From Halocatena pleomorpha (GTDB taxonomy: Archaea; Halobacteriota; Halobacteria; Halobacteriales; Haloarculaceae), in the NCBI RefSeq assembly GCF_003862495.1, contig NZ_RRCH01000014.1, positions 1 through 64,000 on the forward strand: a stretch of DNA of 64,000 nt. The letters run 5' to 3'. A model generated the notes under the pieces. The model was not told the origin of the DNA, made no database searches, and was given only the letters and a program-made list of their open reading frames with translations. Both the position numbers and the translations under genes were made by a program. Positions 1,855-44,867 of the stretch are shown piece after piece; position 1 is the stretch's first letter; each line of letters begins with the position of its first letter.

Positions 1855-1935
1855 TACCGGAGTGTTCTTGCCTGCAACCTTCAGTGTTTTCGATGCCCAC
1901 AGCGGTGCTCAGATACGGATAAAGCGTGAATCGAT

Positions 1936-1967
1936 CTGTTTTCTGTGCGGTTTGTCACAGAAAACAG
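1936..1967. repeat. Perfect 12-bp inverted repeat (strong hairpin)
   Basis: CTGTTTTCTGTG at 1936-1947 is followed by an 8-base loop and its exact reverse complement CACAGAAAACAG at 1956-1967. It lies 82 bp upstream of the UDP-glucose dehydrogenase start and about 160 bp upstream of the divergent nucleotidyltransferase, so it could be an operator for either promoter or a structured leader. It is too long and regular to be chance in such a short gap. No homologous copy was noticed elsewhere in the window. Confidence 0.6.
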
Positions 1968-2120
1968 GCCGCTTCAGCGACTGTTTGAACGAGATTGAAT
2001 TAGGTTTTGTGTCGTGAAAAGAAATACCGCCGTGGCGCATGATTGTTTCCCTTCTCTGGAACCAGCGTATCTGGACACTATCATCCACGAGTAGGAAACC
2101 TGTACTCTATCCGCTACTCC

Positions 2121-2909
2121 ATGAATCGTATGAAAGCTGTCATCTTGACTGCTGGAAAAGGACCCCGTCTTCGTCCCCTGCCTGATGACAAACCCAAGGG
2201 GATGGTTGAAGTCGCTTCCAAGCCAATTCTTACGCACTGCTTCGAACAGCTGGCAGCAATCGGTGTTGATGCGTTTGTCGTCGTGGTTGGGTACCGGAAG
2301 CAGGACATCATCGACCACTGTGGGGATGTGTTCGATGGGATTCCAATCACCTACACCCATCAACGCGAACGATCGAAAGCGGACTCGCCCACGCGTTACT
2401 CACCGTCGAAAATCACATCGATGATGATTTCGTGTTGATGCTCGGAGATAATATTTTTCAGGTAAATTTACAGGAAGTCGTTATCCAACAGCAAACAATC
2501 CATGCCGACGCCGTGTTTCTCGCTGAGGAGGTTCCGTACGAGCAAGCGAGTCGATACGGCGTGTGTAACCAACGGTGACAACGAAATCACGAACGTGATC
2601 GAAAAGCCCGAAGATCCTCCATCGAACACGGTAATGACCGGATTTTATACGTTCTCTTCTGCCATCTTCCATGCCTGTTACCTCGTCCAGCCATCCGATC
2701 GCGGTGAGTATGAGATCAGCGAGGCCATCGACCTGTTGATTCACGGTGGTCGGACGATCGAGACCGTCACTATGGATGGCTGGCGGGTTGATGTCGGGTA
2801 TCCCAAAGACCGTGACGAGGCCGAACGGTTGCTTGCATCAGACTTAGTACCGCTGCTGGGGTGGACAGGAGCCCCCGCGCTCGACAGTTCTGTTCTCGAA
2901 AAATGGTGA
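2121..2909 (+). pseudogene. aglF: Sugar-1-phosphate nucleotidyltransferase (AglF/RmlA-like), double frameshift
   Basis: The first part (MKAVILTAGKGPRLRPL from the ATG at 2130) and the last part (TNGDNEITNVIEKPEDPP to the stop at 2909) are in the same frame. The middle of about 185 bp (GLAHALLTVENHIDDDFVLM, LGDNIFQ) is read only in another frame. The joints fall near 2379, where one base seems lost after ERSKA, and near 2564, where two bases seem lost from a GT repeat. Conceptual repair gives about 260 residues, the normal length of glucose-1-phosphate thymidylyl/uridylyltransferases. The nucleotide-binding signature GxGTRLxPLT has proline in place of both threonines, which suggests genuine decay as well. 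When intact it would activate a sugar-1-phosphate for the neighbouring dehydrogenase or epimerase. Confidence 0.8.
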
Positions 2910-3142
2910 CGATCGGACGGCCGCTTGCTCGGTGTACTACGACGCCACGCATCCTCACGGTTCACATCTGCTTGAGAAGGTGAACACTGAGTTCGTGGTG
3001 TTCTTTGGAGTAACCAAATGCGGATGGTGACTGGATGACGATCCTTGATCTTCTGACTGTCTGTCGATCAACTGTACTGAAAGTATGAAACAACACCAAC
3101 ATTGCTTTTGAACAAGACCGACAATCCTTAGTCTGGATAGGA

Positions 3143-4069
3143 ATGAATCGGAATATGGATGGAAAGCGCGTTCTTGTCACAGGCGGTGCTGGATTCATCG
3201 GATCAAATCTCGCAAACTATCTCGCAGAGCTGAACGATGTTGTCGTGATCGATGACTTGTACCTCGGCACCCCGGAGAATCTCGACGACTCTGTCGAGTT
3301 TCACGATGCGAGCGTTCTTGACGACGAACTTCCCGGTTCTACCGACATCGATGTTCTGTTTCATCTCGCGGCGCTCTCCTCTCGGAACATGCACGAGGAA
3401 AACCCACAACAGGGCGTTCGTGTCAACGTTGAGGGCTTCGTGAACACTGTTGAGCAGGTTCGTGAGCAGTGTGACACGGTTGTCTACGCTTCCACTTCCT
3501 CGATTTATGGCAGTCGAACCGAGCCTTCTCCGGAGGACATGGAGATCACAGCACAGACGGGATACGAGGCTTCGAAACTTGCCCGTGAGAAGTACGCGGA
3601 ATACTACTCGAACCATTATGGGATGACAATGGCGGGACTTCGCTTTTTCTCCGTCTATCAGGGCTACGGCGGCGCAGAAGAGCACAAAGGTGAGTACGCG
3701 AACATCGTCGCACAGTTCGCAGACGAGATCGTCAATGGTCAATCACCTGGGATATTCGGAGACGGCTCCCAGACGCGTGATTTCACCCACATCGATGACA
3801 TTGTTCGCGGGCTTGAAGCTGCTGCCGATCATCGTCTCGACGGTATCTACAACCTCGGTACCGGCGAGCGCTACGATTTCAATACAGTCGTTGGGTTGCT
3901 CAACGAGGAACTAGGGACCGATGTCGAACCAGAGTACATTGAAACACCGTTCGACGACTATGTCCACGACACCCTTGCTGACAGTACGAAAATGCGGGAA
4001 GCCACCGGTTGGGAACCGCAGATCGATTTTGAGGAGGGTATCGAACGAGTGTGTGCGCCCTACAAGTAG
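3143..4069 (+). CDS. NAD-dependent sugar-nucleotide epimerase/dehydratase (extended SDR)
   Basis: 308 residues, the normal size for the GalE/RmlB-like extended SDR family. The NAD motif GGAGFIG is at 14-20, the active-site serine region is YASTSSIYG (115-123), and the catalytic pair is Tyr141/Lys145 in YEASK. Downstream, RDFTHIDDIVRGL and YNLGTGERY are typical substrate-domain motifs. The most likely activity is 4-epimerisation of a UDP-sugar such as UDP-glucose or UDP-glucuronate, but dehydratase function cannot be excluded. A start at 3155 (MDGKRVLVTGG) is equally acceptable. It follows the broken nucleotidyltransferase after a 233-bp gap in which I see no gene, and it closes the glycan cluster. 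Confidence 0.88.
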   Translation: MNRNMDGKRVLVTGGAGFIGSNLANYLAELNDVVVIDDLYLGTPENLDDSVEFHDASVLDDELPGSTDIDVLFHLAALSSRNMHEENPQQGVRVNVEGFVNTVEQVREQCDTVVYASTSSIYGSRTEPSPEDMEITAQTGYEASKLAREKYAEYYSNHYGMTMAGLRFFSVYQGYGGAEEHKGEYANIVAQFADEIVNGQSPGIFGDGSQTRDFTHIDDIVRGLEAAADHRLDGIYNLGTGERYDFNTVVGLLNEELGTDVEPEYIETPFDDYVHDTLADSTKMREATGWEPQIDFEEGIERVCAPYK

Positions 4070-15761: not shown

Positions 15762-17270
15762 TCAATCGTCGGAGTCAGCATCGTCGTCTTCCACAAACGA
15801 GGACACCTCAGGCCGGGTGGTACGCTGCCCGAACAGCCAGTCCGACCAGCTAAGTTTGAGCAGTTGGCGATCACGGTCCGGGAAGCGCCGTTCTGTCGTC
15901 TGTGCGTAGTTCACAAGCGCGACTAAGACCACACCGCCAATAGTGTTTCCGAGCAATACTGGCAACCAGAACTCGTAGAGGACGGTGAACAGCCCGGCCC
16001 CGCTGACAAGCACGAAATAGAACGCCTCACATGCTGCCGTGATGACGTGGTACAGTTCGGCCCCAGCAATCATATAGAACACGATATAGATGAGCAGAAA
16101 GCGAGAGACGGTATCGCGTGCAGCGTGGTCAAGCCACACCACGCCAGCAACAAGCCATCCCGTAAACAGCGCCTTGAGAAACACGTCCCACCACCCGAGG
16201 GAAATCCCGTACCGGGTGAATTCGGCACCAGCGCGCATCGCAGCAGGCGAGAGGACGTGGCTGTTTGCGAGGGTGAACGCGCCGAGTCCCGCTCCGATTG
16301 CGTTTCCTGCTAACACGATCAGCCACACTCGAAACAACATCGGCACGCTGGTAAGTCGGGTCAGAACCAGCGCGACTGGCGGTAACGTGTTCTCAGTATA
16401 CAGCTGATATCGTCCCATGATGATGTAGAGAAAGCCAAGCGGATAGAGGACGGCACTGAGAAAGCTGTTGGTGGGAAAGAGTGCGCTGCCTACTGCGTGT
16501 CCCAGGAACGTCAGCGTGATAGCGAACCCGGCGGCGAGCCCGCTGAAAAAAAGTTCACGAGTGCTCGAATCGATCTCCTCATCAGCACTCGCAACAATGC
16601 GCTGGAAGATCTCGTCCGACGAGAATCGATCACGGATGGCCGCCCCTGCTGCGGGAGCCCCACGCCGCGATCGATCGATCGTCTCTCGGAGCGCAGGAGT
16701 GTCGCTGTCCAGTTGTGATTGAATACCCAAGAACCCACCTGCTTCCGCGAGTGCCCTAAGGAGATGTTCGAATTCGAGCGGGCCCTCATAGCGCTCACCG
16801 TTGATGAAGAAGGTTGGCGTACCGGTAACACCACTGCGTGTACCGCTTTGGACATCCTGGTTGACGCGTTGCTCATGGACCCGCTCGTGCAATTCCTGCT
16901 TGAACTGGTCCGTGTCGAGTCCGAGTTCGGCAGCATACTCGATGAGATGATCCTCTTCAAGTGCGTCTTGATGTTCATAGAGTTGGTCATGCATCTGCCA
17001 GAACTGCCCCTGAGACCCAGCTGCCTCGGCTGCTTCGGCAGCATGCTGTGCATTCGGATGTACACTAGACAGCGGGAAATGGCGAAAGGCGAATCGCAAC
17101 CGGTTCCCGAGTCGGTCTTGAATCCGCCTGAGTATTGGATATAGATCGCTACAGGACGGACAGTCGTAGTCACCGTATTCGACCAACGTCACAGGTGCGT
17201 CGTCCGGCCCTTTGGTATGATCGCGGGCATGAATCGGTGACGTAAGTGTTGATACCCTAGATCGACTCAT
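15762..17270 (-). CDS. DsbA-like thioredoxin domain fused to formate/nitrite transporter (FNT)
   Basis: 502 residues in two domains. Residues 18 to about 185 are a DsbA/thioredoxin-like domain: APVTLVEYGDYDCPSCSDLYP with the redox motif CPSC (Cys37, Cys40), and the cis-proline loop GVTGTPTFFINGERYEG. Residues about 235-480 are an FNT channel with six hydrophobic segments, the first with LFFSGLAAGFAITLTFLG, and NAIGAGLGAFTLANS and LPVLLGNTIGGVVLVALVNY as FNT-type loops. A C-terminal acidic tail follows. There is no signal peptide, so the thioredoxin domain is probably cytosolic, next to the channel's inner mouth. The linker DRSRRGAPAAGAAIRDRFSSDE is charged. It may couple thiol redox state to monovalent anion (formate, nitrite, hydrosulfide) transport, which is inference. 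Confidence 0.9.
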   Translation of the reverse strand: MSRSRVSTLTSPIHARDHTKGPDDAPVTLVEYGDYDCPSCSDLYPILRRIQDRLGNRLRFAFRHFPLSSVHPNAQHAAEAAEAAGSQGQFWQMHDQLYEHQDALEEDHLIEYAAELGLDTDQFKQELHERVHEQRVNQDVQSGTRSGVTGTPTFFINGERYEGPLEFEHLLRALAEAGGFLGIQSQLDSDTPALRETIDRSRRGAPAAGAAIRDRFSSDEIFQRIVASADEEIDSSTRELFFSGLAAGFAITLTFLGHAVGSALFPTNSFLSAVLYPLGFLYIIMGRYQLYTENTLPPVALVLTRLTSVPMLFRVWLIVLAGNAIGAGLGAFTLANSHVLSPAAMRAGAEFTRYGISLGWWDVFLKALFTGWLVAGVVWLDHAARDTVSRFLLIYIVFYMIAGAELYHVITAACEAFYFVLVSGAGLFTVLYEFWLPVLLGNTIGGVVLVALVNYAQTTERRFPDRDRQLLKLSWSDWLFGQRTTRPEVSSFVEDDDADSDD

Positions 17271-27091: not shown

Positions 27092-28498
27092 ATGACAAAC
27101 ATAATCTGGATCACGATCGAGAGCACTCGGGCGGACCACACGTCACTCCACAGCTACGATCGAGACACGACGCCGAATCTCCAGCGAATCGCTGACTTGG
27201 ATGGCGGTCGATCGTTTTCAACGTGTATCAGTCACGGGATATGGACGCGTTCGTCGAGCGCATCGATCCTCACCGGAACGTGGCCCTCCCGTCACAGGGC
27301 AGGGATGGACAGCGAACGAATACCCACCGAACTGATGACTGTTCCTGAACTGTTACGAGAGGAGGGATACCACACTGCTGCGATGTCTCCGAATGCCAAT
27401 CTAAGCTCAGGGACGGGTCTTGACCGTGGATTCACCGATTTCATGTGGATCGACAAGTCTACTCTTCTCGATGATATGAGCAAGGCTACTCTTCTCAAAT
27501 ATCTCTTTAACATCAGAACCCACGGCGGTGGACTAACCAGAGATACGTGGCGACACAACACAGGGTACATGATGCTGGACATGACCAAGCGGTGGCTTCG
27601 GTCGTTTCTGCACTCGACTGAGCCGTTCTTTCTGTACTTGCACTTCGGTGATCCACACCACCCGTATTATCCACCGCTGCCGATACTGAAGCGTGAGACC
27701 GCACGTCTCGGCCTCTCTCCGAAAGAAGCGGAAGAAATCGCTCTCCACCACCACTCCCATATCGACGAACTCGTTGCCCAGGGATGCCCGTACACCGAAG
27801 AGGAGTGGAGAGCACTCACGGCGTTGTACGACGGGGGTATTGAATACGCTGATAAGATCATCGGTGAACTCTTCGACTACGCCTCAGCACTGAACCTCGA
27901 CAACACCGTTTTCGTCATCACAGCTGACCACGGCGAGTCGCTGGGAGAACAGAACCTTCTCGGTCACAAAATCGGCGTGCATGACGGCCTTATCCACGTT
28001 CCGCTCATCGTGTACGGTTCGGAAGAGATGCTGGACTACGCGGGAGAGACGATACAGCATATCGATGTCATGAAGACCCTCCTTGAGTCGATTGGCTCCG
28101 ATACCAGCCAGTTACAAGGTATCGACCTCAGAAATGAGACGCGAACTCACACGATCACACAGCGCGGCCCGTGTCGACGCCAAAGGACCCTCGACGCCTA
28201 CCGGGAATTCAATCCTGATTTCGATGTTTCGCGGTATCTCCCTGGGATGCTCACCGCCATTCGAACAACGAAATTCAAATATCTGAAGGGTGAAAATGAC
28301 TCCAGACTTTACCGGTTACCAGACGAGAACACCGATGTAGCCGCTTACTATGACAATGTGACTCAACAATTTGATGAGAAGCTAACTCGATGGTGGGAGC
28401 ACAGCGGAAAGCCGATCACTGATTCCGAACCAATCGACAGCGCATTCACGGAAGCGCTGCGCGAACAACTTACCGATCTCGGCTACTTCGTCGAATGA
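27092..28498 (+). CDS. Sulfatase-fold (alkaline phosphatase superfamily) hydrolase or transferase
   Basis: 468 residues; I placed the start at 27092 (MTNIIWITIESTRADH), since the upstream in-frame ATG (26939) adds 51 unmatched residues. The sulfatase/AP-superfamily skeleton is clear: SLHSYDRDTTPNLQRIA, the ASILTGTWPSRH block, and FVITADHGESLGEQNLLGH with metal ligands Asp and His. However, the first ligand position is Glu10 (IESTRADH, usually Asp) and the nucleophile position, Thr52 in TRSSSASILTG, lacks the Cys/Ser-x-Pro-x-Arg needed for formylglycine. Glu plus Thr is the pattern of LtaS/MdoB/EptA-type phosphotransferases. It may act on phosphodiesters or phosphoglycerol, not sulfate esters. 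No signal peptide is seen. Confidence 0.85.
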   Translation: MTNIIWITIESTRADHTSLHSYDRDTTPNLQRIADLDGGRSFSTCISHGIWTRSSSASILTGTWPSRHRAGMDSERIPTELMTVPELLREEGYHTAAMSPNANLSSGTGLDRGFTDFMWIDKSTLLDDMSKATLLKYLFNIRTHGGGLTRDTWRHNTGYMMLDMTKRWLRSFLHSTEPFFLYLHFGDPHHPYYPPLPILKRETARLGLSPKEAEEIALHHHSHIDELVAQGCPYTEEEWRALTALYDGGIEYADKIIGELFDYASALNLDNTVFVITADHGESLGEQNLLGHKIGVHDGLIHVPLIVYGSEEMLDYAGETIQHIDVMKTLLESIGSDTSQLQGIDLRNETRTHTITQRGPCRRQRTLDAYREFNPDFDVSRYLPGMLTAIRTTKFKYLKGENDSRLYRLPDENTDVAAYYDNVTQQFDEKLTRWWEHSGKPITDSEPIDSAFTEALREQLTDLGYFVE

Positions 28499-29082
28499 GG
28501 CTATGGCCGTGACTCGCTTTCAGCCGCTCCAAAAATCGGTGGGATTCGTACCGTGAGTACTGTCAGTGCTGTCTCCCGCGAACCGGCGAAAAAGTTGGCC
28601 GCTGTCCATAGTGTGTTACTGCTGTGCTATTTCCAGCGAGCATCACAAGCCACACAAACAGTGGCCGGTGTATGCGGTTACTCTACGCAGGGAAACACAC
28701 GCCGCAACACTATCCTAACAACTCATATTTACACATATTTAGGAAGACAGTGTAACGTGCGGATTTCACAGCTGAAGACTAACTGATAGGAGATTCTCTC
28801 ATCCTCACTGTGCACGCTGTCCACGGTAACATTGTAACGCCACTGTCGTATTCATTTGATTTTAACACACATGGTAATCGTGCGATCTATGCTAATATAC
28901 CAAAGATACGTTATAATCATCGACAGTTAAATGGAAGCTACGTATCAACAGACATTGTTTACACAATACGAATAATGTATTACTGTGATCGATTTCCCGG
29001 AAACCCTACTAGCCGAGTCGTACGCATCTGTACACGGATAGACTGGGACGCTGTTTCGGGCGATTATTAACTCGCCCGAAGG
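28499..29082. other. Intergenic region upstream of the rhamnosidase
   Basis: About 580 bp, AT-rich from 28700 on, with no supported gene. Its last part carries the promoter of the rhamnosidase gene. Confidence 0.45.
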
Positions 29083-29088
29083 TTTATG
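29083..29088 (+). promoter_or_regulatory. TATA box of the rhamnosidase gene
   Basis: TTTATG centred 27-28 bp before the ATG at 29113, in otherwise mixed sequence (GAAGGTTTATGTTTC), is the canonical archaeal spacing for a leaderless transcript and settles the start codon at 29113. Confidence 0.55.
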
Positions 29089-29112
29089 TTTCTAGTACTG
29101 AGATTTCACTTC

Positions 29113-32100
29113 ATGTCTGCATCCTCTGAGGAGCAGTTGCCTCGGCCGAGAGATCTTTGTGTGGAGTACGAAGCGGAACCGATCAACGTTGACCCGACGA
29201 CACCGCCGCGATTCTCCTGGCAAGTTGAAACGAATCACCGCGATGTTCGCCAGACCGCATATCGCGTCATCATCGGCCGGGAAGAAGAAACCGTAGCAGA
29301 AGGCCGCGGCGATCTCTGGGACTCCGGCCGCGTTGACTCATCAGCGGCGACGGGCGTGCGCTATGGTGGACCGTCCCTCGCGTCGAATGAAACGTACCAC
29401 TGGTCAGTAAAGGTCTGGACCGATACGAGCGAGACGGACTGGGCAGCACCGGTTCCGTTCTCAACGGCGCTCGAACCCGAGGAGTGGCGGGGTGAGTGGA
29501 TCGCTCACCAGCCCGGAGCTGGTGATGTTGACGGCTGGCGCAGCCAGTGGCAAGATTCGAAATCAGCGAGCGAGGAGTGGGTGCAGGTCGATCTGGGCGA
29601 CATCCGGGACGTTTCCGAGATCACGCTCCACCCCGCCAATCCTATCTCTATCGTTCGGACACCCGACACTGTGCCTGTCACAATGTCGTGGTCTGACAAC
29701 CCCCTCGCGGAGTTTGGATTTCCGGACGCCTACCGCGTCGAAGTGGCAGACGATCCTGATTTCGCGGCGGCAACCGTTGTCGCTGAGTACACAGCTGAGT
29801 CTGCGCCAAAGCTGGACGACCCAGCGGGGCAACCTGACGACAGCGTTGCCCCGCGAACCCACGACGGGTTCGACGCACGCGGACGGTACGTCCGCGTCAC
29901 CGCAACCGATCTCTCCTCAGTTCAACCAGCCGCGAGGTCGATATCGAGCGTTCGGGATGTCGACCGGTGTGTCGAATCGATCGATGCGTACGCGTGTTTT
30001 GCTCTCGCTGCGCTCACTGTCCGGGCCGATGACGGGACGAACCTCACGCCCGGTGATATCGAGACATCATCGTCTGTTGAGACGGACACGTGGAGTCGTG
30101 ACTACCTGATTGACGGTGGTACCGAGTCTCAGCTGGCGTCTTCTTCACCGCTGCTCAGGAATGAATTCTCGATCGAGAAGCCCGTCCGTTCAGCGCGAAT
30201 CCACGTCGCTGCGGTGGGGTACGGGGAACTGTACGTCAACGGCGAGCGCATCAGCAATCGACAGCTCGACCCTGCGTGGACGGATTATGAGCGCCGTGTT
30301 CTGTACGCGACACACGACATCTCGGACCAACTCCGAGAGGGTTCGAACGCGCTTGGGTTGTGGCTCGGTCGTGGTTGGTTCGCTAAACGCAGCTCCTACT
30401 GGCTCTCCGACGGCTCACCGCGCGGCCGCGCAACCCTGACGATCGAATTCGAGGACGGGACGACCCGAACCCGGTCGACAGACGGCAACTGGCTGGCGAC
30501 TGGGAGTCCGTTGCTCGAAAACGACATCTACGATGGCGAGCACTACGACGCCCGGCGGGAAGCGAGTGGATGGAGCGAGTCAGATTTCGATGACAGGGAC
30601 TGGGACCCAGCGAGCGTCGTCGATGGTCCTGGCGGAACGCTCCGACCGGAGCGGATCCAGCCGATGCAGGTGGTCGACACCTTCGATGTCGTCGAGGCCT
30701 CCGACCGCGAGGACCTCTCCGAGCGCGAGGTGCCCGACCGCGAGGACGGTCCAATCGTCGACTTCGGACAGAATCTCACCGGATGGGTGGAGATCGAGAT
30801 CGACGGCGCGGACGCAGGGGATGAGATACGGCTTCGTCACGCGGAGGCGCTCACCGCCGACGGTGAACTCTCCACCACGGATTTGCGGAGCGCCGACGCG
30901 ACCGACACGTACGTCGCCCGCGGTGACGGAACCGAGACGTACGAACCCCAGTTCACGTATCACGGCTTCCGATACGCCCAGATATCGGGCTACCCGGGTG
31001 AGTTCGATCCTGACGCAGTGACAGCGAAGGTCGTCCACACAGCCATGGAACCACGGGGCGAATTCGCCTGTTCGAACGATGATCTGAACCAGGTCCAGCA
31101 CAACGCGGTATGGGGATTACGTGGTAATACCCACTCGATTCCGGAGGACTGCCCCCAACGTGACGAACGCTTCGGTTGGACCGGCGACGCCCACATTTCG
31201 ACCCGGGCGCTGCTGTTCAACTTCGACGCGGTCCGGTTTGACGAGAAGTGGGCGCGCGACCACGACGACGCTGCGTCCGAGATGGGGTACGTCCCAGACG
31301 TTATTCCGAACAAAGCTGCTGAGACCCCCGCTGATCCAACGTGGTCGATCACGCGCGTGATGGTGCCGTGGTATCTCTACAAACACGACGGCGACATCGG
31401 CGTCCTCAGAGAGCAGTATGAGGGGATGCGGGCGTACGTCGAGTACTGGCTCTCAGTTGCGGACAACGGTATCCTCCCCGATACATACGGGAAGTACGGT
31501 GACTGGCTCGCGTTCGAGAACACCGAGGGACGTCGCGGACTTCCACACGACCTCTACAACACAGCGTTTCTCTACCAAGTCACCGACACGTTCTCGAAGA
31601 TCGCCGCCGTTCTCGGGAACGAGACGGACGCCGACGCCTACCGCCACCGGGCCGACGTGATCGCCGCTGCGTTTAACGACCGCTTTTTCGACGCCGACGC
31701 GGGCGTGTATGGCCCAGGAACGCAGTCGTCGTACGCCGTCCCGCTGTTTCTCGGAATGGTTCCAGAGGGAGACACCGAACTCGTCGCTGAAAACCTCGCT
31801 GCGACAGTACGGGCAGACGGCAGCAAGCTTCAGACTGGCTTTCTCGGGACACGGCCGCTTATCCATACGCTCGCGGCCCACGGCTACACGGAACTCGCCT
31901 ACGAGGTTGTGAGCCAGCCCGACCAGCCCGGTTGGGTGTACATGGCTCGCAACGGTGCGACGACACTGTGGGAGCGCTGGAACGCCGACGAAAGCGTCGG
32001 CTCCGGAATGAACTCGCTTAATCACTCACCGTTCACGCACGTTTCTGAGTTCTTCTATGCGGTGTTAGCGGGCATCCAAGTAGCGGATGCGCCTATGACC

Positions 32101-32415
32101 GAACACGTCACGATCGCTCCTGCTCTGGTCAACGATCTTGACTGGGTGGACGCGAGCGTCGAGACGCCGAACGGAACCCTCGCGGTCGCGTGGGACCGAG
32201 ATGGAGACGAATACCGACTCAGCACGACAATCCCGTGGAACACGTCTGCGACGATCAGACTGCCCGAGGCCGCCGATGCGACTGTAGCGGAGTCTGGAAC
32301 GAAACTCCACGGGCGCACCGATGGGTCCCTCTCGGGCCTCCGTACTATCAACCGAGACGCCGGCGACGTAGTCCTCGAAGTCGGATCTGGTACGTACGAA
32401 TTCGAGGTTGTATAG
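29113..32415 (+). CDS. GH78 alpha-L-rhamnosidase with inserted discoidin-like domain
   Basis: 1100 residues. The N-terminal RPRDLCVEYEAEPINVDPTT, then FSWQVETNHRDVRQTAYRVI, is the fibronectin-like domain of bacterial GH78 enzymes. An insert of about 170 residues (WVQVDLGDIRDVSEITLHPANP ... GRYVRVTATDLSS) looks like an F5/8C (discoidin) carbohydrate-binding fold. Then come the GH78 beta domain (GYGELYVNGERISNRQLDPAWTDYERRVLY), the (alpha/alpha)6 catalytic domain with EDCPQRDERFGWTGDAHIS (catalytic acid Glu/Asp cluster), ARNGATTLWERWN (catalytic base region) and a C-terminal beta domain. It releases terminal L-rhamnose from oligosaccharides or glycosides. There is no signal peptide, so it acts inside the cell. 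The start at 29113 is supported by TTTATG 28 bp upstream. Confidence 0.93.
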   Translation: MSASSEEQLPRPRDLCVEYEAEPINVDPTTPPRFSWQVETNHRDVRQTAYRVIIGREEETVAEGRGDLWDSGRVDSSAATGVRYGGPSLASNETYHWSVKVWTDTSETDWAAPVPFSTALEPEEWRGEWIAHQPGAGDVDGWRSQWQDSKSASEEWVQVDLGDIRDVSEITLHPANPISIVRTPDTVPVTMSWSDNPLAEFGFPDAYRVEVADDPDFAAATVVAEYTAESAPKLDDPAGQPDDSVAPRTHDGFDARGRYVRVTATDLSSVQPAARSISSVRDVDRCVESIDAYACFALAALTVRADDGTNLTPGDIETSSSVETDTWSRDYLIDGGTESQLASSSPLLRNEFSIEKPVRSARIHVAAVGYGELYVNGERISNRQLDPAWTDYERRVLYATHDISDQLREGSNALGLWLGRGWFAKRSSYWLSDGSPRGRATLTIEFEDGTTRTRSTDGNWLATGSPLLENDIYDGEHYDARREASGWSESDFDDRDWDPASVVDGPGGTLRPERIQPMQVVDTFDVVEASDREDLSEREVPDREDGPIVDFGQNLTGWVEIEIDGADAGDEIRLRHAEALTADGELSTTDLRSADATDTYVARGDGTETYEPQFTYHGFRYAQISGYPGEFDPDAVTAKVVHTAMEPRGEFACSNDDLNQVQHNAVWGLRGNTHSIPEDCPQRDERFGWTGDAHISTRALLFNFDAVRFDEKWARDHDDAASEMGYVPDVIPNKAAETPADPTWSITRVMVPWYLYKHDGDIGVLREQYEGMRAYVEYWLSVADNGILPDTYGKYGDWLAFENTEGRRGLPHDLYNTAFLYQVTDTFSKIAAVLGNETDADAYRHRADVIAAAFNDRFFDADAGVYGPGTQSSYAVPLFLGMVPEGDTELVAENLAATVRADGSKLQTGFLGTRPLIHTLAAHGYTELAYEVVSQPDQPGWVYMARNGATTLWERWNADESVGSGMNSLNHSPFTHVSEFFYAVLAGIQVADAPMTEHVTIAPALVNDLDWVDASVETPNGTLAVAWDRDGDEYRLSTTIPWNTSATIRLPEAADATVAESGTKLHGRTDGSLSGLRTINRDAGDVVLEVGSGTYEFEVV

Positions 32416-35358: not shown

Positions 35359-36581
35359 ATGATGGCCCGCACCCGACGTCGATTTCTTGAATCAACCGGA
35401 CTCGTGCTCGCTGGTTCGCTCAGTAACAGATTCGTTGCCGGTAGCTCTGATTCTGCTCTTCCGACCACGTACGATTGGCCGATGGCGCGGTACGACCCTG
35501 CCGGGACCGGCCACCATCCGACGGCATCGGGTCCCAAAGACGACGTCAGGATCGCCTGGACTCACGACACGACGGACTGGTTTCTGGGAACAGTTCCACC
35601 GATCCGACGAGGAAAAACGATCTACGCTGTGGGGAACGGACTACTCGCTCTCGACAGTGAAACCGGAGCACAGCAGTTCAGTCATCCTGGTCCGTATCGC
35701 TCCAGCCCCGTCTGTGTTCGGTCTCCGATCTACGACACCGCCACGCTTGCAGTGACTGCTTCATCCGGTGTTTTCGGATTGAACGCTGATGGTGGACTCG
35801 ATGTTCCGTTGTCAGATCGGTCGTTCGGTGCGCAGCGATGGACAGCGTCCCCTCTTCGAGGGCTGGCTTTTTCGGTCCGACTGGCTCAGTCGTCCCCCCT
35901 GTTGCTGCTGACAGAGCGATCTACACCCCACTTCCGGCCACGGATTCGATCGCCTCACTCGATCCGAGCGATGGGACGATCCAGTGGCAAAAGACACCCC
36001 ACGAAGACGACTCGGTCAGCGTCGAATTCAATAGACCCGCCGTGAAAGATGATCTCATCTTCGTTACGAGCTGGCCCCAGCGAGTGACCGCCTACCGCAC
36101 CGACACCGGAGTCAAACGCTGGCAACGAGAACTTGACGAACAGACGCTTTTGCCACCAGTAGCGACCGAGGAAGGGGTTGTCGTCCCGTCTCGCACCAGT
36201 GTTCGTTTACTCGACGCTGCCGACGGCTCCGACCTGTGGAACCGTAGTCTCGATGGGAATGCGGTCGAGAGTGCACCAGCGGTAGCCAGCGGAACGATCT
36301 TCGTTGCCGACGAACGGGAGTTTCTCCACGCGCTCGATCTCGTGACGGGCAAGCCACTGTGGACGCTGCCGTTCGATGGGCCAACGTCGCCAGTCGTGGC
36401 TGACGATATCGTGTACGCGGTTCGATCGGCAGTCTCGTTGGTCGGTATCGACGCCAAATCGGGTGAGAAACGGTTCGAGTATCAGCCATCACAAGTTCCG
36501 TTGTCGGCACCGATCGTCGGTGATGGCGTCCTCTATGTCACCAATCGCAATCGAGTAATCGCTCTGGAGGAAGCGACATGA
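35359..36581 (+). pseudogene. PQQ-type beta-propeller protein, one frameshift
   Basis: The first frame (35359-35855 or so) gives a Tat-like start MMARTRRRFLESTGLVLAGS, then YDWPMARYDPAGTGHHPTASGP, the usual opening of haloarchaeal PQQ-repeat proteins. Blades of the type GLLALDSETGAQQF follow. The frame shifts by one base near 35855 and continues with ADRAIYTPLPATDSIASLDPSDGTIQWQK, LIFVTSWPQRVTAYRTDTGVKRW, LLDAADGSDLWNRS, LHALDLVTGKPLWTL and GIDAKSGEKRFEY to the stop. About eight W-motif blades in all. Repaired it is about 407 residues, normal. The downstream membrane protein overlaps its stop by four bases, which suggests a recently intact operon or a sequencing error. Confidence 0.85.
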
Positions 36582-38166: not shown

Positions 38167-39666
38167 CTATCGGATCGAGATTGCGGCAACCGTCGCTGGC
38201 GGAAGTTCCACCGTGCACGTTCCATCAGTGTCGGCTGAGATGGCCAGTTCGGTAGCCACGAACTCGTCGGCGTTGTCCGCAGTAGCCACAAGATCTGGTG
38301 CTTGATCCGCAAAGAGGATCTCACCGTTAGCCTCCGTCTCGCTCGGACAGTCGCCTTCGAGTGAGATTTCGACAGTGTGTTCTTCGAGACAATCGAGGTT
38401 CGTGACAGTGACGTACGTCTCCTCGTCAGCGATCGAAGCGGAGGCACCAACCAACGTGAGATCGTCGTCCGCTACTTCACGCGTCGGCGCGGCAACGGAT
38501 GTCCGGACGGCTTCGTTGCTCTTATGGGGGGCGTACAGATCGAAGACACGGTATGTCGGACGCGCCCACGCGTCGTTTTCGTCGGTTTCGACGAGGCACT
38601 GAAGGACGTTGACAGTTTGGGCGATGTTCGTCATCGTCACGACATCACTATGATCGTTGAACACGTCGAGGACCGCCGCCGCTGAAAGCCCATCGAGAAC
38701 AGTTCCCGGCTGTTCGAGACCGCTCTCAGCTGTGGCTTCGGGATGCCAGGCCCCCCACTCATCGACGATGACACCGATATCACGCGTCGTGGCAACCGCA
38801 TCGATCGCGGCGGCTATCCGCTCGATGTGGCGCTCCATTTCGAGCGCTTCAGCGAGGAATTCGTCGTAATCGTCTTCGTCGGCCTCGGAAACGCTCATCG
38901 TCCGACCGTAGTAGTGGTGCAACGTGAGATGGTCGAGCGGGAACGATTTTCCCCACGGAGCACCGGCGACCTCTTCGAGGAACCGACGGTTCCACTCGTG
39001 GCCTTCGTAGCCGCATGCGATGAGTTCGAGATCGTGGTCAAGCAGTAGGGCGTCCGTGGTTCCGACGTAGGTCGCAAAGCGTCGGTACTCCCGCGCGTAC
39101 TGTTCGGGGGTCATCCGACCGCCACAGCCCCAGTTCTCGTTTCCGAGTCCCCAGTAGGTGACGCCGTAGGGTTCCTCGTGACCGTTCTGTCGGCGTCGGT
39201 CTGCCAGTTCGGTGTCGCCGCCGTAGTTGCAGTACTCTACCCAGTCCGTGGCTTCCTGTGGGTCGCCGGAGCCGACGTTCGCGGCGAGATACGGCTCTGT
39301 GTCGAGGCGCTCACAGAGCGCGAGGAATTCGTCGGTGCCGAACGCGTTCGATTCTTCGGGCGTCTCTTCTGGCCCTTGTGCCCAAAAGAGGTTGCGGCGA
39401 CGGGGTCGTTCATCGCGCGGTCCGACGCCGTCTTTCCAGTGATAATCATCAGCGAAACACCCGCCGGGCCAGCGGAGGACCGGGAGATCGAGATCTTCGA
39501 GCAAGGAAACGGTGTCGTCGCGCAAGCCGCTTTCTTCCGCGCTGTCGCTGTGCCAGATCCCGCCGTAAATACAACGACCGAGGTGTTCAGAAAAGTGACC
39601 GTGTACTTCCGGTGCGATTTGATCGATAGTCGCCTCAGTATGAACCGCTATGCGTGCCTCAGCCAT
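38167..39666 (-). CDS. GH51 alpha-L-arabinofuranosidase
   Basis: 499 residues from the ATG at 39666, about the usual GH51 length. It has the N-terminal strand ARIAVHTEATIDQIAPEVHGHFSEHLGRCIYGGIW, LPVLRWPGGCFADDYHWKDGVGPR, and the acid/base Glu in YWGLGNENWGCGG. The nucleophile Glu is in IVDEWGAWHPEA. A C-terminal beta domain begins near residue 400 (EDTYVTVTNLD-like). It cleaves terminal arabinofuranose from arabinan/arabinoxylan oligosaccharides inside the cell; no signal peptide. The start is fixed by TATTAATA (39693-39700), about 30 bp upstream. It diverges from the sugar ABC importer, an arrangement that implies shared regulation. Confidence 0.95.
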   Translation of the reverse strand: MAEARIAVHTEATIDQIAPEVHGHFSEHLGRCIYGGIWHSDSAEESGLRDDTVSLLEDLDLPVLRWPGGCFADDYHWKDGVGPRDERPRRRNLFWAQGPEETPEESNAFGTDEFLALCERLDTEPYLAANVGSGDPQEATDWVEYCNYGGDTELADRRRQNGHEEPYGVTYWGLGNENWGCGGRMTPEQYAREYRRFATYVGTTDALLLDHDLELIACGYEGHEWNRRFLEEVAGAPWGKSFPLDHLTLHHYYGRTMSVSEADEDDYDEFLAEALEMERHIERIAAAIDAVATTRDIGVIVDEWGAWHPEATAESGLEQPGTVLDGLSAAAVLDVFNDHSDVVTMTNIAQTVNVLQCLVETDENDAWARPTYRVFDLYAPHKSNEAVRTSVAAPTREVADDDLTLVGASASIADEETYVTVTNLDCLEEHTVEISLEGDCPSETEANGEILFADQAPDLVATADNADEFVATELAISADTDGTCTVELPPATVAAISIR

Positions 39667-39692
39667 ACATTGATTGATATTTGTACATACCA

Positions 39693-39700
39693 TATTAATA
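39693..39700 (-). promoter_or_regulatory. TATA box of the arabinofuranosidase gene
   Basis: TATTAATA on the minus strand, centred about 30 bp upstream of the ATG at 39666, fits a leaderless haloarchaeal promoter and decides against the in-frame ATGs further upstream. Confidence 0.55.
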
Positions 39701-39760
39701 CTTCGGGTCCTATCGTTCCAATGCCCCATCACTGAGACGACAACAGATCTCCGGATCGAT

Positions 39761-39785
39761 GGAACTGGTAACCGGTTTGGGTTCC
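39761..39785. promoter_or_regulatory. Candidate operator palindrome between divergent sugar promoters
   Basis: GGAAC at 39761-39765 and GTTCC at 39781-39785 flank a central AACCGGTT (39770-39777), giving an imperfect 25-bp dyad centred midway between the GH51 TATA box and the ABC operon TATA box. It is a plausible binding site for a shared regulator. Confidence 0.45.
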
Positions 39786-39827
39786 TATGTCCGTTCTGTG
39801 CTGGGACAACACATGATGACTAGTACC

Positions 39828-39878
39828 ATCAAACATGAAAACGACAATAGAAGTAAAATATATATGTATATGTTTGAT
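39828..39878. promoter_or_regulatory. Inverted repeat flanking the ABC operon TATA box
   Basis: ATCAAACAT at 39828-39836 and ATGTTTGAT at 39870-39878 are exact reverse complements, on each side of AAAATATATATGTATA (39857-39868 holds the TATA box, about 27 bp before the ATG at 39891). A repressor or activator dimer could bind across the promoter. Confidence 0.55.
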
Positions 39879-39890
39879 TGGTGCTGTTGT

Positions 39891-41204
39891 ATGAGAGCAG
39901 GTGACAGAAGAGAGAGACCACGCTCCCGTTCGAGCGGTCGGGACAGCCAGAGTTACACGAGCCGTCGGGGGCTGTTGCGAGCAGCGGGTGCTGTCGGGCT
40001 TGCCGGACTCGCTGGCTGCACAGGGTTCGTCGGTAGCTCCTCGGACGGCATCGAGTACTGGACGTTGTTCAGCGGCGGTGACGGCGCAGTCATGAAGTCG
40101 ATGGTCAACGAGATTAACGACAGCGGCGACCACGACTTTCAGATCAATCGACAGCGGGTTCCGTGGGACGAACACTATCGCCGTCTGTATACCTCAATGG
40201 TCGGCGGGAATCCGCCGGACATCGCCGTGATGCACTCGCGGATGATGAACGAATATCAGGACAATCTCGTGCCGGTCACCGACGAGATCGGCACGGAGCC
40301 GTACCTCACGGACGTTGCTCAGGGTGGAATGGTCGACGGCGAACAACTCGCTGTTCCGATCGATACCCATCCGTTGGGACTCTATTACAACAAGGAGATT
40401 TTCGAAGAAGCCGGATTAGATCCCGAGAAGCCGCCGAACACGCCGGATCGGTTCCAGGAAGCCGCTGCTGCGATTATCGAAAACACCGACTACTACGCGT
40501 TCGATTTCCCCGAAGGGGAGTATCACGCAGAAACGATGTGGATGTTGCTTCACGGTCGGGGTGGCAAGGTTCTGACCGACGACTACGAACCCGCGTTCGA
40601 TACGCCAGACGGTCGAGCAGTCGTTCAGGAGATGCACGACTGGGTCCACAAACACGGGTGGGCACCCGTCGATCCGGTAGCGGGGTGGGAGGCGTGGAAC
40701 CGGGGTGAACTCGGGATGAGGATCGACGGGACGTGGCACGTGACCGTCGTCCGGGAGGTAGGGTTCGAGTTCGGTATGACGAAACCGTTCGTCATGCCGG
40801 GCGCAGACAATCCCGTTACGATCGGTGACAGCCACACACTGATCATTCCCCAGAGCGAAGAGCGCGACCGGAAGCGCCTCGAAAACGCGATCGAGACCAT
40901 TCGCTTGCTTTCCCAACAGTTCAACGACAGATGGGGACGGAAAGCCGGTCACCTTCCTGCCAGCAAGGCGGCGCTCAAAAGCGATTCGCTCCGGACATCG
41001 AAGACGTGGGAACAGACGCTCGGAGTGTTTCATGATATGGTGAACAACGATCAGTTCATTCGGCCGCCGGCGACGCCGAACGTCGAGGAGTACACTGAAG
41101 CGATCTATCAGCCCCTCGATGACATGCGCGCCGGGAACATATCTCCCGATAAGATGATCAAAACCGCTGTGAACGGCGTCGAACAAGCATTCAACAGAAG
41201 ATAA
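39891..41204 (+). CDS. Carbohydrate ABC transporter substrate-binding lipoprotein
   Basis: 437 residues from ATG 39891. The leader SRRGLLRAAGAVGLAGLAGC is a twin-arginine signal with an LAGC lipobox, so the protein is a Tat-exported, lipid-anchored binding protein at the outer face of the membrane. The mature part (IEYWTLFSGGDGAVMKSMVNE, VPWDEHYRRLYTSMVGGNPPDIAV, PIDTHPLGLYYNKEIFEEAGLD, GWEAWNRGELGMRIDGTWHV) is a family 1 carbohydrate-binding protein (UgpB/MsmE-like). The start choice rests on a strong TATA box 27 bp upstream. The stop overlaps the next ATG by one base, so the operon is coupled. Confidence 0.95.
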   Translation: MRAGDRRERPRSRSSGRDSQSYTSRRGLLRAAGAVGLAGLAGCTGFVGSSSDGIEYWTLFSGGDGAVMKSMVNEINDSGDHDFQINRQRVPWDEHYRRLYTSMVGGNPPDIAVMHSRMMNEYQDNLVPVTDEIGTEPYLTDVAQGGMVDGEQLAVPIDTHPLGLYYNKEIFEEAGLDPEKPPNTPDRFQEAAAAIIENTDYYAFDFPEGEYHAETMWMLLHGRGGKVLTDDYEPAFDTPDGRAVVQEMHDWVHKHGWAPVDPVAGWEAWNRGELGMRIDGTWHVTVVREVGFEFGMTKPFVMPGADNPVTIGDSHTLIIPQSEERDRKRLENAIETIRLLSQQFNDRWGRKAGHLPASKAALKSDSLRTSKTWEQTLGVFHDMVNNDQFIRPPATPNVEEYTEAIYQPLDDMRAGNISPDKMIKTAVNGVEQAFNRR

Positions 41205-42112
41205 TGGCACAATCAACCCAACAGACTGACGCAGACGGATCGGGACTCGACCGCTCGAAGTCGATGACACGCGAGTGGATTGCGGGAGCTACGTTTTCGC
41301 TTCCGTACATCCTGATTGCCGGAACGTTCCTCTTTGGCCCGCTGGTGCTCGCGCTGTACATGAGTCTCCACGACTGGAACGCGCTCGCCCCGGCCCAATC
41401 GCAGTTCATCGGCTTTGAGAACTACCAGATTCTGCTATCTGACCCTGACTTTTGGAACGCGCTGTGGAACACCCTTTATTTCGTCTTTCTGACAGTCCCG
41501 CCGATCATCATCGGCTCGCTGTTGCTCGCGCTCGGCGTCAACCGTGACGTGAAAGGCAAATGGCTGTTGCGAACGATCTTTTTCAGTCCGTACGTGTTGA
41601 CCGTCGCGGTCGTCGGGCTTCTCTGGACGGAACTGTTCAACGCTTCGGGACTGATTCCCTACCACATCGGTGGGGGGAACTGGTTGACATCTCCCGAGCT
41701 TGCGATGCCGGGGATCGCGATCGCAACGATCTGGTGGCAGTTGGCATTCAATTTCATCATCCTTCTGGCCGCGCGCCAGAACGTTCCCGACCGACTGTAT
41801 GAAGCGGCGAAACTGGACGGGGCGAGCACGGGGCAGATGATGCGCCACATCACGATCCCACAGATGCGAAACCCGCTCGTCTTCGTCGTCATCGTCACCT
41901 TTGTCAATTCCTTTCAGGTGTTCGGTCAGCCGTTCATCATGACCAACGGCGGACCAACGTTCTCCACGACGACAATCGTCCTTTACCTCTACGAGACGGC
42001 CTTTACCGGCCGGGAGTTCGGCTATGCCGCTGCGGTCGGCTACGTCCTGTTTATGATCCTGATTGCTATCTCGGCAACCAACTACTACTTCCTCGCAGGT
42101 GATGATCAATGA
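41204..42112 (+). CDS. Carbohydrate ABC transporter permease (MalF/UgpA type)
   Basis: 302 residues, six predicted helices. The inner-membrane coupling (EAA) motif reads EAAKLDGASTGQMMRHITIP, followed by PLVFVVIVTFVNSFQVFGQPFIMTNGGP typical of MalF-class permeases, and TIVLYLYETAFTGREFGYAAAVG near the end. It forms a heterodimer with the next gene product. The ATG overlaps the binding-protein stop by one base. The gene is intact. Confidence 0.95.
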   Translation: MAQSTQQTDADGSGLDRSKSMTREWIAGATFSLPYILIAGTFLFGPLVLALYMSLHDWNALAPAQSQFIGFENYQILLSDPDFWNALWNTLYFVFLTVPPIIIGSLLLALGVNRDVKGKWLLRTIFFSPYVLTVAVVGLLWTELFNASGLIPYHIGGGNWLTSPELAMPGIAIATIWWQLAFNFIILLAARQNVPDRLYEAAKLDGASTGQMMRHITIPQMRNPLVFVVIVTFVNSFQVFGQPFIMTNGGPTFSTTTIVLYLYETAFTGREFGYAAAVGYVLFMILIAISATNYYFLAGDDQ

Positions 42113-42972
42113 GCACCGAATCATCCGTTCTCGGGAACGTATCGCTGTCGAGCGACCGCCTTCGAACCATCGCCTTGTACGTCGGTCTGTACGGAACGGC
42201 GGGTCTGTTCCTCGTCCCATACTGGTACATGTTTGCGACATCGTTCATGACACGCGAGCTAGTATATTCAGAGGTCCCGCATCTAATCCCGTGGGATCTA
42301 ACGCTGCATTGGTATGACTACCTCCTCACGAGTTCGCTAGTCGTTCAGTGGACCGGCAACACGATCATTCTCGCCGGGATCACGACGCTCGTCGTCCTCT
42401 TAGTCGACGCGATGATCGCGTATTCGCTGACCCGGCTCGATTGGCCCGGTAGGCGCGTGATCTTCGGGGTTATCGTGGCGAGCTTCATGGTGCCCGGTAT
42501 CATCAACCTCGTTCCCGTGTACATCATCGTGAGTGAACTCGGTCTCGTCAACTCCATTTGGGGTGTCGTCCTTCCGAGTGCTGCCAACCCGCTCGGCGTG
42601 TTCATGCTCGTCCAGTTTTTCAAAGACCTTCCTGAGGAGTTGGAAGAAGCCGCTCGCCTCGATGGGTTCTCGCGCCTGCGAATCTTTACCCACATCGTAC
42701 TGCCGCTGATGCGGTCGGCACTCGCGGCGCTCGGACTGTTCATTTTCATCTGGACGTGGAACTCGTTCGTCTGGCCGCTGTTGATTCTTCAGAGTGAGAC
42801 GATGTACACGCTGCCGATCGGGCTGGTGACGTTACAAGAGAACATGGGCGTCACCGAACCGGGTGTGATCATGACGTCCGCAGTCATCGCCTCGGTTCCG
42901 CTGCTGATCCTGTTCCTCGTCATGCAAAAGCAGCTCGTCCGGGCCGTCGAAATGCAGGGGACGACGAAATGA
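42109..42972 (+). CDS. Carbohydrate ABC transporter permease (MalG/UgpE type)
   Basis: 287 residues, six helices. The EAA motif is EELEEAARLDGFSRLRIFTHIVLPLMRSAL, and FIFIWTWNSFVWPLLILQSE is the MalG-type signature region. It overlaps both neighbours by four bases (ATGA), as is usual in these operons. The MalG partner binds the second copy of the ATPase through its EAA loop. Confidence 0.95.
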   Translation: MSTESSVLGNVSLSSDRLRTIALYVGLYGTAGLFLVPYWYMFATSFMTRELVYSEVPHLIPWDLTLHWYDYLLTSSLVVQWTGNTIILAGITTLVVLLVDAMIAYSLTRLDWPGRRVIFGVIVASFMVPGIINLVPVYIIVSELGLVNSIWGVVLPSAANPLGVFMLVQFFKDLPEELEEAARLDGFSRLRIFTHIVLPLMRSALAALGLFIFIWTWNSFVWPLLILQSETMYTLPIGLVTLQENMGVTEPGVIMTSAVIASVPLLILFLVMQKQLVRAVEMQGTTK

Positions 42973-43613
42973 CCGAGACGAACCTCGATCCGATGTACGC
43001 CTCCATCAAGCGGACCGGACGGTTCGTCTGGGAACACCTCGTGTCCATCGTCTCGATCAGCGTCGTCTGGTTTCTCGCGTCGCTGCCGATCGTGACGGTC
43101 GGTCCTGCGACTGTCGGAGCGTACCGGGCCGTGTTGTCACTCCGGGACGACGATCACGCGGGAATCGATCGGGGTGGGGTCTGGGCGACCGTTCGCCAAC
43201 AGGCCGTTCATGCGACGCTGCTCGGATTCGTCCCGTTGGTGTTGTTCGTGATCGCAGGGAACTACGTGCTCGCGTACCTTGCAAGCGGAACGGTCGCCGC
43301 CGGTCTGCTCGGGCTCTGTTGTGCGTACGCCGGTTTGTACGCATCGCTCGTGTCGGTTCCGACACTACTCGGTCTCGCAGCGGGGAAATCCGCCCCCTCT
43401 GCGCTCACGGACGGCGTTCTCTGGACCGCCCGCCACGCGGTCGGCGCGGTGGCGCTCGGCGTCGTAACGGGCGTACTGTTCGTCATCACGTCGTTGTTGA
43501 CCGTCGCGGTGGCGTTGCTGTTCGCTGGCGTCGCGTTCGCGCTTCACGTCGAGTTCATCTCGGTCGTTTCCGAAACCGACACACCGGCACCGACGGCGGT
43601 GGTTGATCGATGA
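42969..43613 (+). CDS. DUF624 (YesL-like) membrane protein
   Basis: 214 residues with about six hydrophobic segments, starting with a 30-residue cytosolic part and VSIVSISVVWFLASLPIVTVGPATVGAYRA. The 'LxSLPIxTxGxAxxAxY' block is the DUF624/YesL signature. YesL-type proteins are encoded with rhamnogalacturonan and other sugar importers in Bacillus and recur in haloarchaeal sugar operons; their exact function is unknown. The four-base overlap with the permease gene ties it to this importer. Confidence 0.88.
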   Translation: MTETNLDPMYASIKRTGRFVWEHLVSIVSISVVWFLASLPIVTVGPATVGAYRAVLSLRDDDHAGIDRGGVWATVRQQAVHATLLGFVPLVLFVIAGNYVLAYLASGTVAAGLLGLCCAYAGLYASLVSVPTLLGLAAGKSAPSALTDGVLWTARHAVGAVALGVVTGVLFVITSLLTVAVALLFAGVAFALHVEFISVVSETDTPAPTAVVDR

Positions 43614-43712
43614 CCGGATGTGCCGACCGACACCGAATCGCTGCCCTGGAAACGGGTGAATCGAGAGGATCGGGTAGAACCGACGGTAGTTACGAACTAA
43701 CGGAGCTTCAAA

Positions 43713-44867
43713 ATGAGTAAAACGAATGACGCAGCATCGGTAACGTTCGAGAACGTGCGGAAAGTGTACTCCGACGACTTCGTCGCGGTCGATAGCTTCG
43801 ACGCCACCATCGACGACGGCGAGTTCATCACCGTCGTCGGTCCCTCTGGGTCCGGCAAATCGACGCTACTACGCATGGTCGCCGGTCTCGAAGAGATCAC
43901 CGGTGGCGACGTTCGGATCGGCTCGGAGAGCATCAAGGGTGTCGAACCCCAAGACCGTGGGATTGCGATGGTGTTCCAGAACTACGCACTGTATCCCCAC
44001 ATGACTGTTCGAAAGAACATGTCCTACGGACTGAAACTGACGACAGAGCTTCCCGACGAGGAGATCAAGCAGCGGGTTCGGGAAACAGCGGAGATGATGG
44101 GCATCGAAGACCAACTGGACGACAAACCGGCGAACCTTTCGGGCGGACAGCAACAGCGCGTTGCGACCGGTCGCGCGATCGTCCGCGATCCGAAGATTTT
44201 CCTGATGGACGAACCCCTATCGAATCTCGACGCCAAACTCAAGGTCCACATGCGGACGGAACTCCAGCGGCTCCAAGAAGAGCTTGGAACGACGACCATC
44301 TACGTCACTCACGACCAACACGAAGCGTTGACGATGAGCGATCGGATTATCGTTCTCAACGAGGGTGAACTCCAGCAGTTCGCCCCGCCGGAAGAGGTGT
44401 ACAACGAACCCGCAAACCGGTTCGTCGCGGACTTCATCGGCAGCCCAGCGATGAACTTCTTCGATGTCGAACTGCACGGAACGACGCTCCTCGGCAACGG
44501 GTTCGAGTACGAACTCCCGTCCGCGATCGTCGATACGATCTCCGACACGGACGCAACAACCGGTCTCGAACTCGGGATTCGGCCCGAAGACATCACATAC
44601 GACGCAAGCGGTGACAACACGATCACCGCGGTCGTTGATGTCGTCGAGGTAGCGGGGAGCGACAATTTCATCTATTTGGATATCGAGGGATCGGAGTGTC
44701 GTGTTCGGGTGTCTGGCGGCCTGAAACCGACCGTCGGTGACCGTGTGGATATCGCGTTTAACCCTGACGACGTTCACCTCTTCGACGCGTCCGGTGAAAA
44801 TCTGCTCACCGGATCGAGCGATACGGCTGTCCCCCAAGCTCAGACTGAGTCCGAAAAGACCACCTGA
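43713..44867 (+). CDS. Carbohydrate ABC transporter ATP-binding protein (MsmX/UgpC type)
   Basis: 384 residues. Walker A GPSGSGKST at 43-51, Q-loop FQNYALYPHMTVRKN, signature LSGGQQQRV, Walker B IFLMDEPLSNLDA, and switch H in TIYVTHDQHEALT. The C-terminal 140 residues are the TOBE/MOP regulatory domain (GIRPEDITYDASG) of the MsmX/UgpC/MalK class, so the ATPase may be shared by several importers. A 100-bp gap separates it from DUF624, with no promoter evident, so it is probably still in the operon. Confidence 0.96.
   Translation: MSKTNDAASVTFENVRKVYSDDFVAVDSFDATIDDGEFITVVGPSGSGKSTLLRMVAGLEEITGGDVRIGSESIKGVEPQDRGIAMVFQNYALYPHMTVRKNMSYGLKLTTELPDEEIKQRVRETAEMMGIEDQLDDKPANLSGGQQQRVATGRAIVRDPKIFLMDEPLSNLDAKLKVHMRTELQRLQEELGTTTIYVTHDQHEALTMSDRIIVLNEGELQQFAPPEEVYNEPANRFVADFIGSPAMNFFDVELHGTTLLGNGFEYELPSAIVDTISDTDATTGLELGIRPEDITYDASGDNTITAVVDVVEVAGSDNFIYLDIEGSECRVRVSGGLKPTVGDRVDIAFNPDDVHLFDASGENLLTGSSDTAVPQAQTESEKTT

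Follow-up and report, generated by a model that had tools for sequence, protein, structure and literature searches.

What does a sulfatase-fold protein do when a threonine takes the place of the cysteine that is converted to formylglycine (FGly)? The question is raised by one gene in the window, the 64,000-nucleotide stretch of the Halocatena pleomorpha genome analysed here (genome of 3.65 Mb, 61 contigs, 96.6% complete; the window is on contig C6). A sequence-only reading had suggested that the product is a phosphotransferase or phosphodiesterase akin to LtaS and EptA, hidden among sulfatase annotations.

A conserved and soluble PF00884 protein

The gene is an unbroken reading frame of 468 codons, and the PF00884 profile covers the full core of its product, P0001 (149.5 bits against a curated cut-off of 25). 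The gene and the residues discussed below are:

27092..28498, plus strand: CDS of the 468-aa PF00884 alkaline-phosphatase-fold protein P0001 (ATG at 27092, TGA at 28496-28498)
27119..27121 (GAG), plus strand: Glu10, which comes directly after strand 1 (residues 3-9) and is predicted from the alignment to be the first metal ligand
27245..27247 (ACG), plus strand: Thr52, which opens helix 52-61 and is the predicted nucleophile (from the alignment; it occupies the position of the FGly cysteine)
27656..27658, plus strand: His189, invariant active-site histidine (47/47), by its PHxP motif the counterpart of His211 of the Pseudomonas arylsulfatase
27926..27931, plus strand: Asp279-His280, predicted metal ligands after strand 272-278 (47/47; secondary structure)
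27965..27967, plus strand: His292, near-invariant (45/47)

The closest named relatives, in Halocatena marina and Halocatena salina, are intact genes whose products share 77% identity with P0001; they reside on replicons of 415-475 kb and are annotated "sulfatase". Haloarcula hispanica has an orthologue of 43% identity, encoded on a replicon of 406 kb. Compared with these two orthologues, the gene has a dN/dS of about 0.13-0.17, low enough to indicate purifying selection. No segment of P0001 is hydrophobic (averaged over 19 residues, hydropathy peaks at 1.13), and the protein is predicted to be soluble, with no membrane domain. A promoter and terminator scan with bacterial models gave a signal no higher than in shuffled sequences.

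A threonine-type active site in place of the FGly site

The absence of a CxPxR or SxPxR motif and the role of Thr52 as the aligned nucleophile, both proposed from the sequence, were borne out. The site reads T52-R-S-S-S-A-S-I-L-T-G62, and Thr52 aligns without gaps with the cysteine of the CSPSR motif in a paralogue (L005) from the same genome. Across an alignment of 47 sequences, comprising P0001 and 46 archaeal and bacterial relatives from several phyla, position 52 is Thr in 41, Ser in six and Cys in none, and the rows of the Ser type lack the signature Arg. The equivalents of the sulfatase residues Arg55, Lys113 and His115 are replaced in P0001, where S99-x-N101 stands at the K-x-H site (each of the two residues in 40/47); His292 we take, by motif comparison, to occupy the place of the sulfatase lysine.

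The loss of these three sulfatase residues would suit an inactive relative of the fold with a binding or regulatory role. We consider this highly improbable, given the retention of the Thr/Ser nucleophile, Asp279, His280 and His189 in 47 sequences from several phyla, a pattern beyond chance, and the purifying selection on the gene. Glu10 was correctly located and numbered in the earlier reading, but it is not peculiar to LtaS and EptA: of the 45 filled rows at position 10, 28 hold Asp and 17 Glu. As the two residues replace each other among relatives, we rejected Glu10 as a diagnostic residue.

We found no match to FGE (PF03781) or to anSME (TIGR03942) in the 96.6%-complete genome. With neither an FGly motif nor an FGly-making enzyme found, it is very unlikely that P0001 is a true S1 sulfatase. 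The paralogue L005 (C4:37479-38354) carries its canonical CSPSR motif even though the genome shows no match to either maturation enzyme. P0001 resembles the S1 sulfatases (SulfAtlas; choline sulfatase 6fny, 6g5z) in fold, PF00884 membership, nucleophile position, Asp-His ligands and spacing to the LTG glycine, and differs from them in having Thr for Cys, no Pro or Arg of CxPxR, S-x-N for K-x-H, and no maturation enzyme found in its genome.

A threonine at this site is present in 30 of the 59 PF00884 Pfam seed sequences (Barbeyron et al. 2016, PMC5066984). The same authors pointed out that an oxidised threonine gives a ketone and not FGly, and that the TxNxE examples should not be called sulfatases without evidence (PMC5066984). 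Since they had already noted the exchange of Thr for Cys, our observation falls within a recognised problem, and P0001 is a member of an already recognised, widespread Thr-type PF00884 class; the motif named in that work is TxNxE, whereas the family of P0001 is of the TRSSS/TLPSS kind.

A sulfatase reading could also be drawn from the next downstream gene:

29086..32415, plus strand: GH78 alpha-L-rhamnosidase, 587 bp away (Pfam PF17389, 5e-101)

Together, the two genes might form a catabolic locus for rhamnose glycans in which P0001 is a true sulfatase that works without FGly. The adjoining GH78 gene speaks for this, as does the presence of 6hr5, annotated as an alpha-L-rhamnosidase/sulfatase, among the PDB matches of P0001. 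We nonetheless find it very unlikely, because the FGly motif is missing, neither FGE nor anSME is matched, oxidation of Thr would end in a ketone (PMC5066984), and the GH78 gene is not adjacent in the two nearest Halocatena relatives (L039, L040). On this loss of adjacency we rejected the rhamnosidase-sulfatase pair and, on present evidence, place GH78 outside the system.

Several other features were seen in the window. A ten-pair inverted repeat at 29054-29081 (TTTCGGGCGA ... TCGCCCGAAG, with one G-T pair) lies just 5' of the GH78 ATG at 29086 and could be an operator. By eye, a GH51-like arabinofuranosidase in the region 38167-44867 faces a set of sugar ABC-transporter genes (for a binding protein, two permeases and an ATPase), and a 502-aa ORF on the minus strand (15762-17270) seems to join a DsbA/thioredoxin-like domain to a formate/nitrite-transporter-like membrane domain; this ORF has a close copy in another Halocatena genome (L260). 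On the plus strand, a PQQ/beta-propeller-like frame at 35359-36581 is split into two overlapping parts (35359-36045 and 35838-36581), probably by a frameshift or sequencing error.

Fold relatives and the comparison with LtaS and EptA

In the AlphaFold model of P0001 (pLDDT 93, pTM 0.93), E10 follows strand 1, a helix begins with T52, and strand 272-278 is followed by D279-H280, a predicted layout that matches the usual alkaline-phosphatase arrangement. Foldseek returned 323 PDB matches at E<=0.001. Phosphonate monoester hydrolases headed the list together with choline sulfatases (TM of about 0.65-0.69), the hydrolases 2w8s and 2vqr being the best (E of 4e-21 and 1e-20, TM 0.68-0.69), while LtaS and EptA were absent among the best 50 of the 323. 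NCBIfam models gave 86 bits for arylsulfatase and at most 39 bits for EptA/MCR. Judged by its sequence and modelled fold, P0001 sides with the branch of arylsulfatases, choline sulfatases and phosphonate monoester hydrolases.

These results bear on the phosphotransferase interpretation, according to which Thr52 would move a phosphoryl-alcohol group (e.g., glycerol phosphate) from a donor to a glycan, in the manner of LtaS and EptA. LtaS (2w5q) and EptA/MCR-1 indeed share with P0001 the Thr nucleophile and the Glu and Asp-His ligands by alignment. The weak EptA/MCR matches (39 bits) and the glycan-assembly neighbourhoods of its relatives, described below, lend further support. Known Thr-type enzymes of the alkaline-phosphatase fold move phosphoryl groups, which counts against a sulfuryl reading. 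Sequence similarity to LtaS and EptA is weak, however, and P0001 stands nearer to the sulfatases in score (86 bits for arylsulfatase) and to the phosphonate hydrolases in fold. LtaS and EptA/MCR-1 are moreover membrane enzymes that are active outside the cell, LtaS and EptA acting on lipid donors, whereas P0001 lacks a membrane domain and its catalytic strand already starts at residue 3. As the experimental precedent for haloarchaeal sulfatase-like proteins is also sulfation (PMC11980604), we regard phosphotransfer as unlikely.

The motif spacing separates P0001 from LtaS as well. Gly62 of the LTG motif does lie ten residues after Thr52, as had been claimed, though not "exactly as in LtaS". 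In LtaS of S. aureus, where the chain reads GQGK-T-SDSEFTMDNSLYG, the next Gly follows the Thr by 13 residues and no LTG occurs, and this rules out an LtaS-like spacing (entry 2w5r has Ala in place of that Thr). Sulfatases ordinarily show the ten-residue spacing, as in CSPSRGSLMTG of the paralogue L005.

A cytosolic hydrolase (phosphodiesterase, phosphatase or phosphonate monoester hydrolase), in which phospho-Thr52 would be released to water, is a second phosphoryl-based possibility. It would suit a gene that stands alone, the superfamily includes phosphodiesterases that use Thr, and the best fold matches, 2w8s and 2vqr, resemble P0001 also in overall sequence profile. Yet the matched hydrolases carry FGly and not Thr, and the relatives of P0001 are placed in biosynthetic glycan loci, leaving us to judge this option improbable. 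The sequence-only reading was thus right that P0001 should not be an FGly-dependent sulfatase, whereas its proposed kinship with LtaS and EptA gives way before the sulfatase-branch sequence and fold and the missing membrane domain; phosphotransferase or phosphodiesterase activity keeps some probability, with neighbourhoods and haloarchaeal precedent favouring glycan sulfation at least equally.

Relatives are found in glycan-assembly loci

Relatives were located with an alignment as query, a scan of the genome contigs with the single protein having returned none. We collected the 20-kb surroundings of 40 homologues from Haloarculaceae, clustered their genes and used Pfam to identify those that recurred. 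The recurrent neighbours were GT4 and GT2 glycosyltransferases, NAD epimerase, UDP-glucose dehydrogenase, a polysaccharide flippase and the oligosaccharyltransferase STT3/AglB. At least one such sugar-assembly marker occurred in 36/40 homologue loci, compared with 1/20 control regions of the same genomes, and at least two in 29/40 compared with 0/20; the size of this contrast is inflated, as the markers were drawn from the homologue loci themselves, but its direction is clear. A second alkaline-phosphatase-like type with no Pfam family ("c2") accompanied 16 of the 40 loci and one of the 20 controls. The aglB gene lay within about 10 kb in 7/40 loci, and also beside a 52%-identical homologue (L187) in a genome of the Halobacteriaceae (G225).

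In Salinibaculum litoreum (L043/L085), genes for a glycosyltransferase, the homologue, a flippase, ATP-sulfurylase and APS kinase follow one another on the same strand. ATP-sulfurylase and APS kinase together produce PAPS. A classical sulfotransferase gene located about 5 kb further along could be an alternative user of this PAPS.

The gene for P0001 is itself isolated: no gene for glycan assembly lies within 10 kb of it. The edge of a surface-sugar locus, with UDP-glucose dehydrogenase, a nucleotidyltransferase-like stretch (2118-2834) and NAD epimerase, is visible about 23 kb away, at 562-4069 of the window. Phylogenetically, P0001 groups with the two Halocatena relatives (SH-aLRT 100) and then with Halosimplex (99), all of them within a 43-row clade of haloarchaeal sequences (100). 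Among the homologues linked to aglB, several (Salinibaculum L085, L187 of G225 and Haloarcula types) belong to a sister group outside the P0001 subgroup, in which many loci retain genes for UDP-glucose dehydrogenase, flippase or glycosyltransferase. The isolation of the window's copy means that its function could have shifted from that of its relatives, and this limits our confidence in the explanation that we prefer.

A proposed group transferase and its donor

Direct precedent comes from Hbt. salinarum, where VNG1056C and VNG1057C, two proteins of alkaline-phosphatase fold encoded in the aglB cluster, are reported to be sulfotransferases of the N-glycan: their deletion strongly cuts sulfation, and expression of either in Hfx. 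volcanii places sulfate on the N-glycan of that host (PMC11980604). VNG1057C is soluble and arylsulfatase-like (PMC11980604). Likened by description, P0001 shares with the pair its haloarchaeal origin, alkaline-phosphatase core and sulfatase-like annotation, and with VNG1057C its solubility. Like the pair, several P0001 homologues lie in an aglB-linked glycan locus; P0001 itself is not beside aglB. The start of VNG1057C, taken from the cloning primer and used as a pattern, had no match in 392 order-level genomes and 13 of a genus that is probably Halobacterium, and the start of VNG1055 gave approximate matches only. VNG1056C, which has no InterPro family, an N-terminal membrane segment and a primer-read C-terminus of LEDLGYL, may belong to the c2 type.

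Taking these lines of evidence together, our tentative first choice is that P0001 is a group transferase of the alkaline-phosphatase fold that works in the cytosol, modifying cell-surface glycan precursors, the group being sulfuryl with greater likelihood than phosphoryl. The chemistry of a Thr nucleophile lends itself best to making a covalent ester and then handing the group on. In the proposed mechanism, Thr52 would be activated by a metal bound to E10, D279 and H280 and would take the charged group from its donor as a covalent Thr ester; from Thr52 the group would then pass, not to water, but to a hydroxyl on a sugar of a lipid- or nucleotide-linked glycan.

The donor is the chief weakness of this explanation and also its most interesting loose end. 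PAPS, donor, catalytic and active site are terms that do not appear in the main text of PMC11980604. Strong APS-kinase matches (E below 1e-40) were present in 16 of the 146 genomes of the family, namely in 6/51 genomes with a close homologue and 10/95 without (Fisher p = 0.79). Dependence on PAPS, tried by co-occurrence, was accordingly rejected, there being no association with APS kinase or ATP-sulfurylase. One carrier of a 77%-identical homologue (G040) has no APS kinase, and no recognisable APS kinase was found in any of 26 Halobacteriaceae genomes, including the genus that is probably Halobacterium. Hbt. salinarum, a member of the Halobacteriaceae, makes sulfated N-glycans (PMC11980604). 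The lack of association implies either that the family uses a donor other than PAPS from the standard kinase or that many members of the family do not sulfate. A specific form of the first option, in which the family would be PAPS-independent sulfotransferases that pass sulfate from another donor through a sulfo-threonine intermediate to surface glycans, is a long shot. The genome of the window does encode an APS kinase (L259, C12:109266-109679), next to a sulfotransferase-like gene with an APRGGSS motif; such pairs recur in four other genomes (G042, G124, G008 and G122) and possibly serve glycolipid sulfation.

The name sulfatase is routinely given to PF00884 proteins that have no FGly signature. 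Here, the active site and neighbourhoods of a conserved, haloarchaea-wide family fit glycan modification instead, and the family bears on how, and from which donor, proteins of the sulfatase fold may add sulfate.
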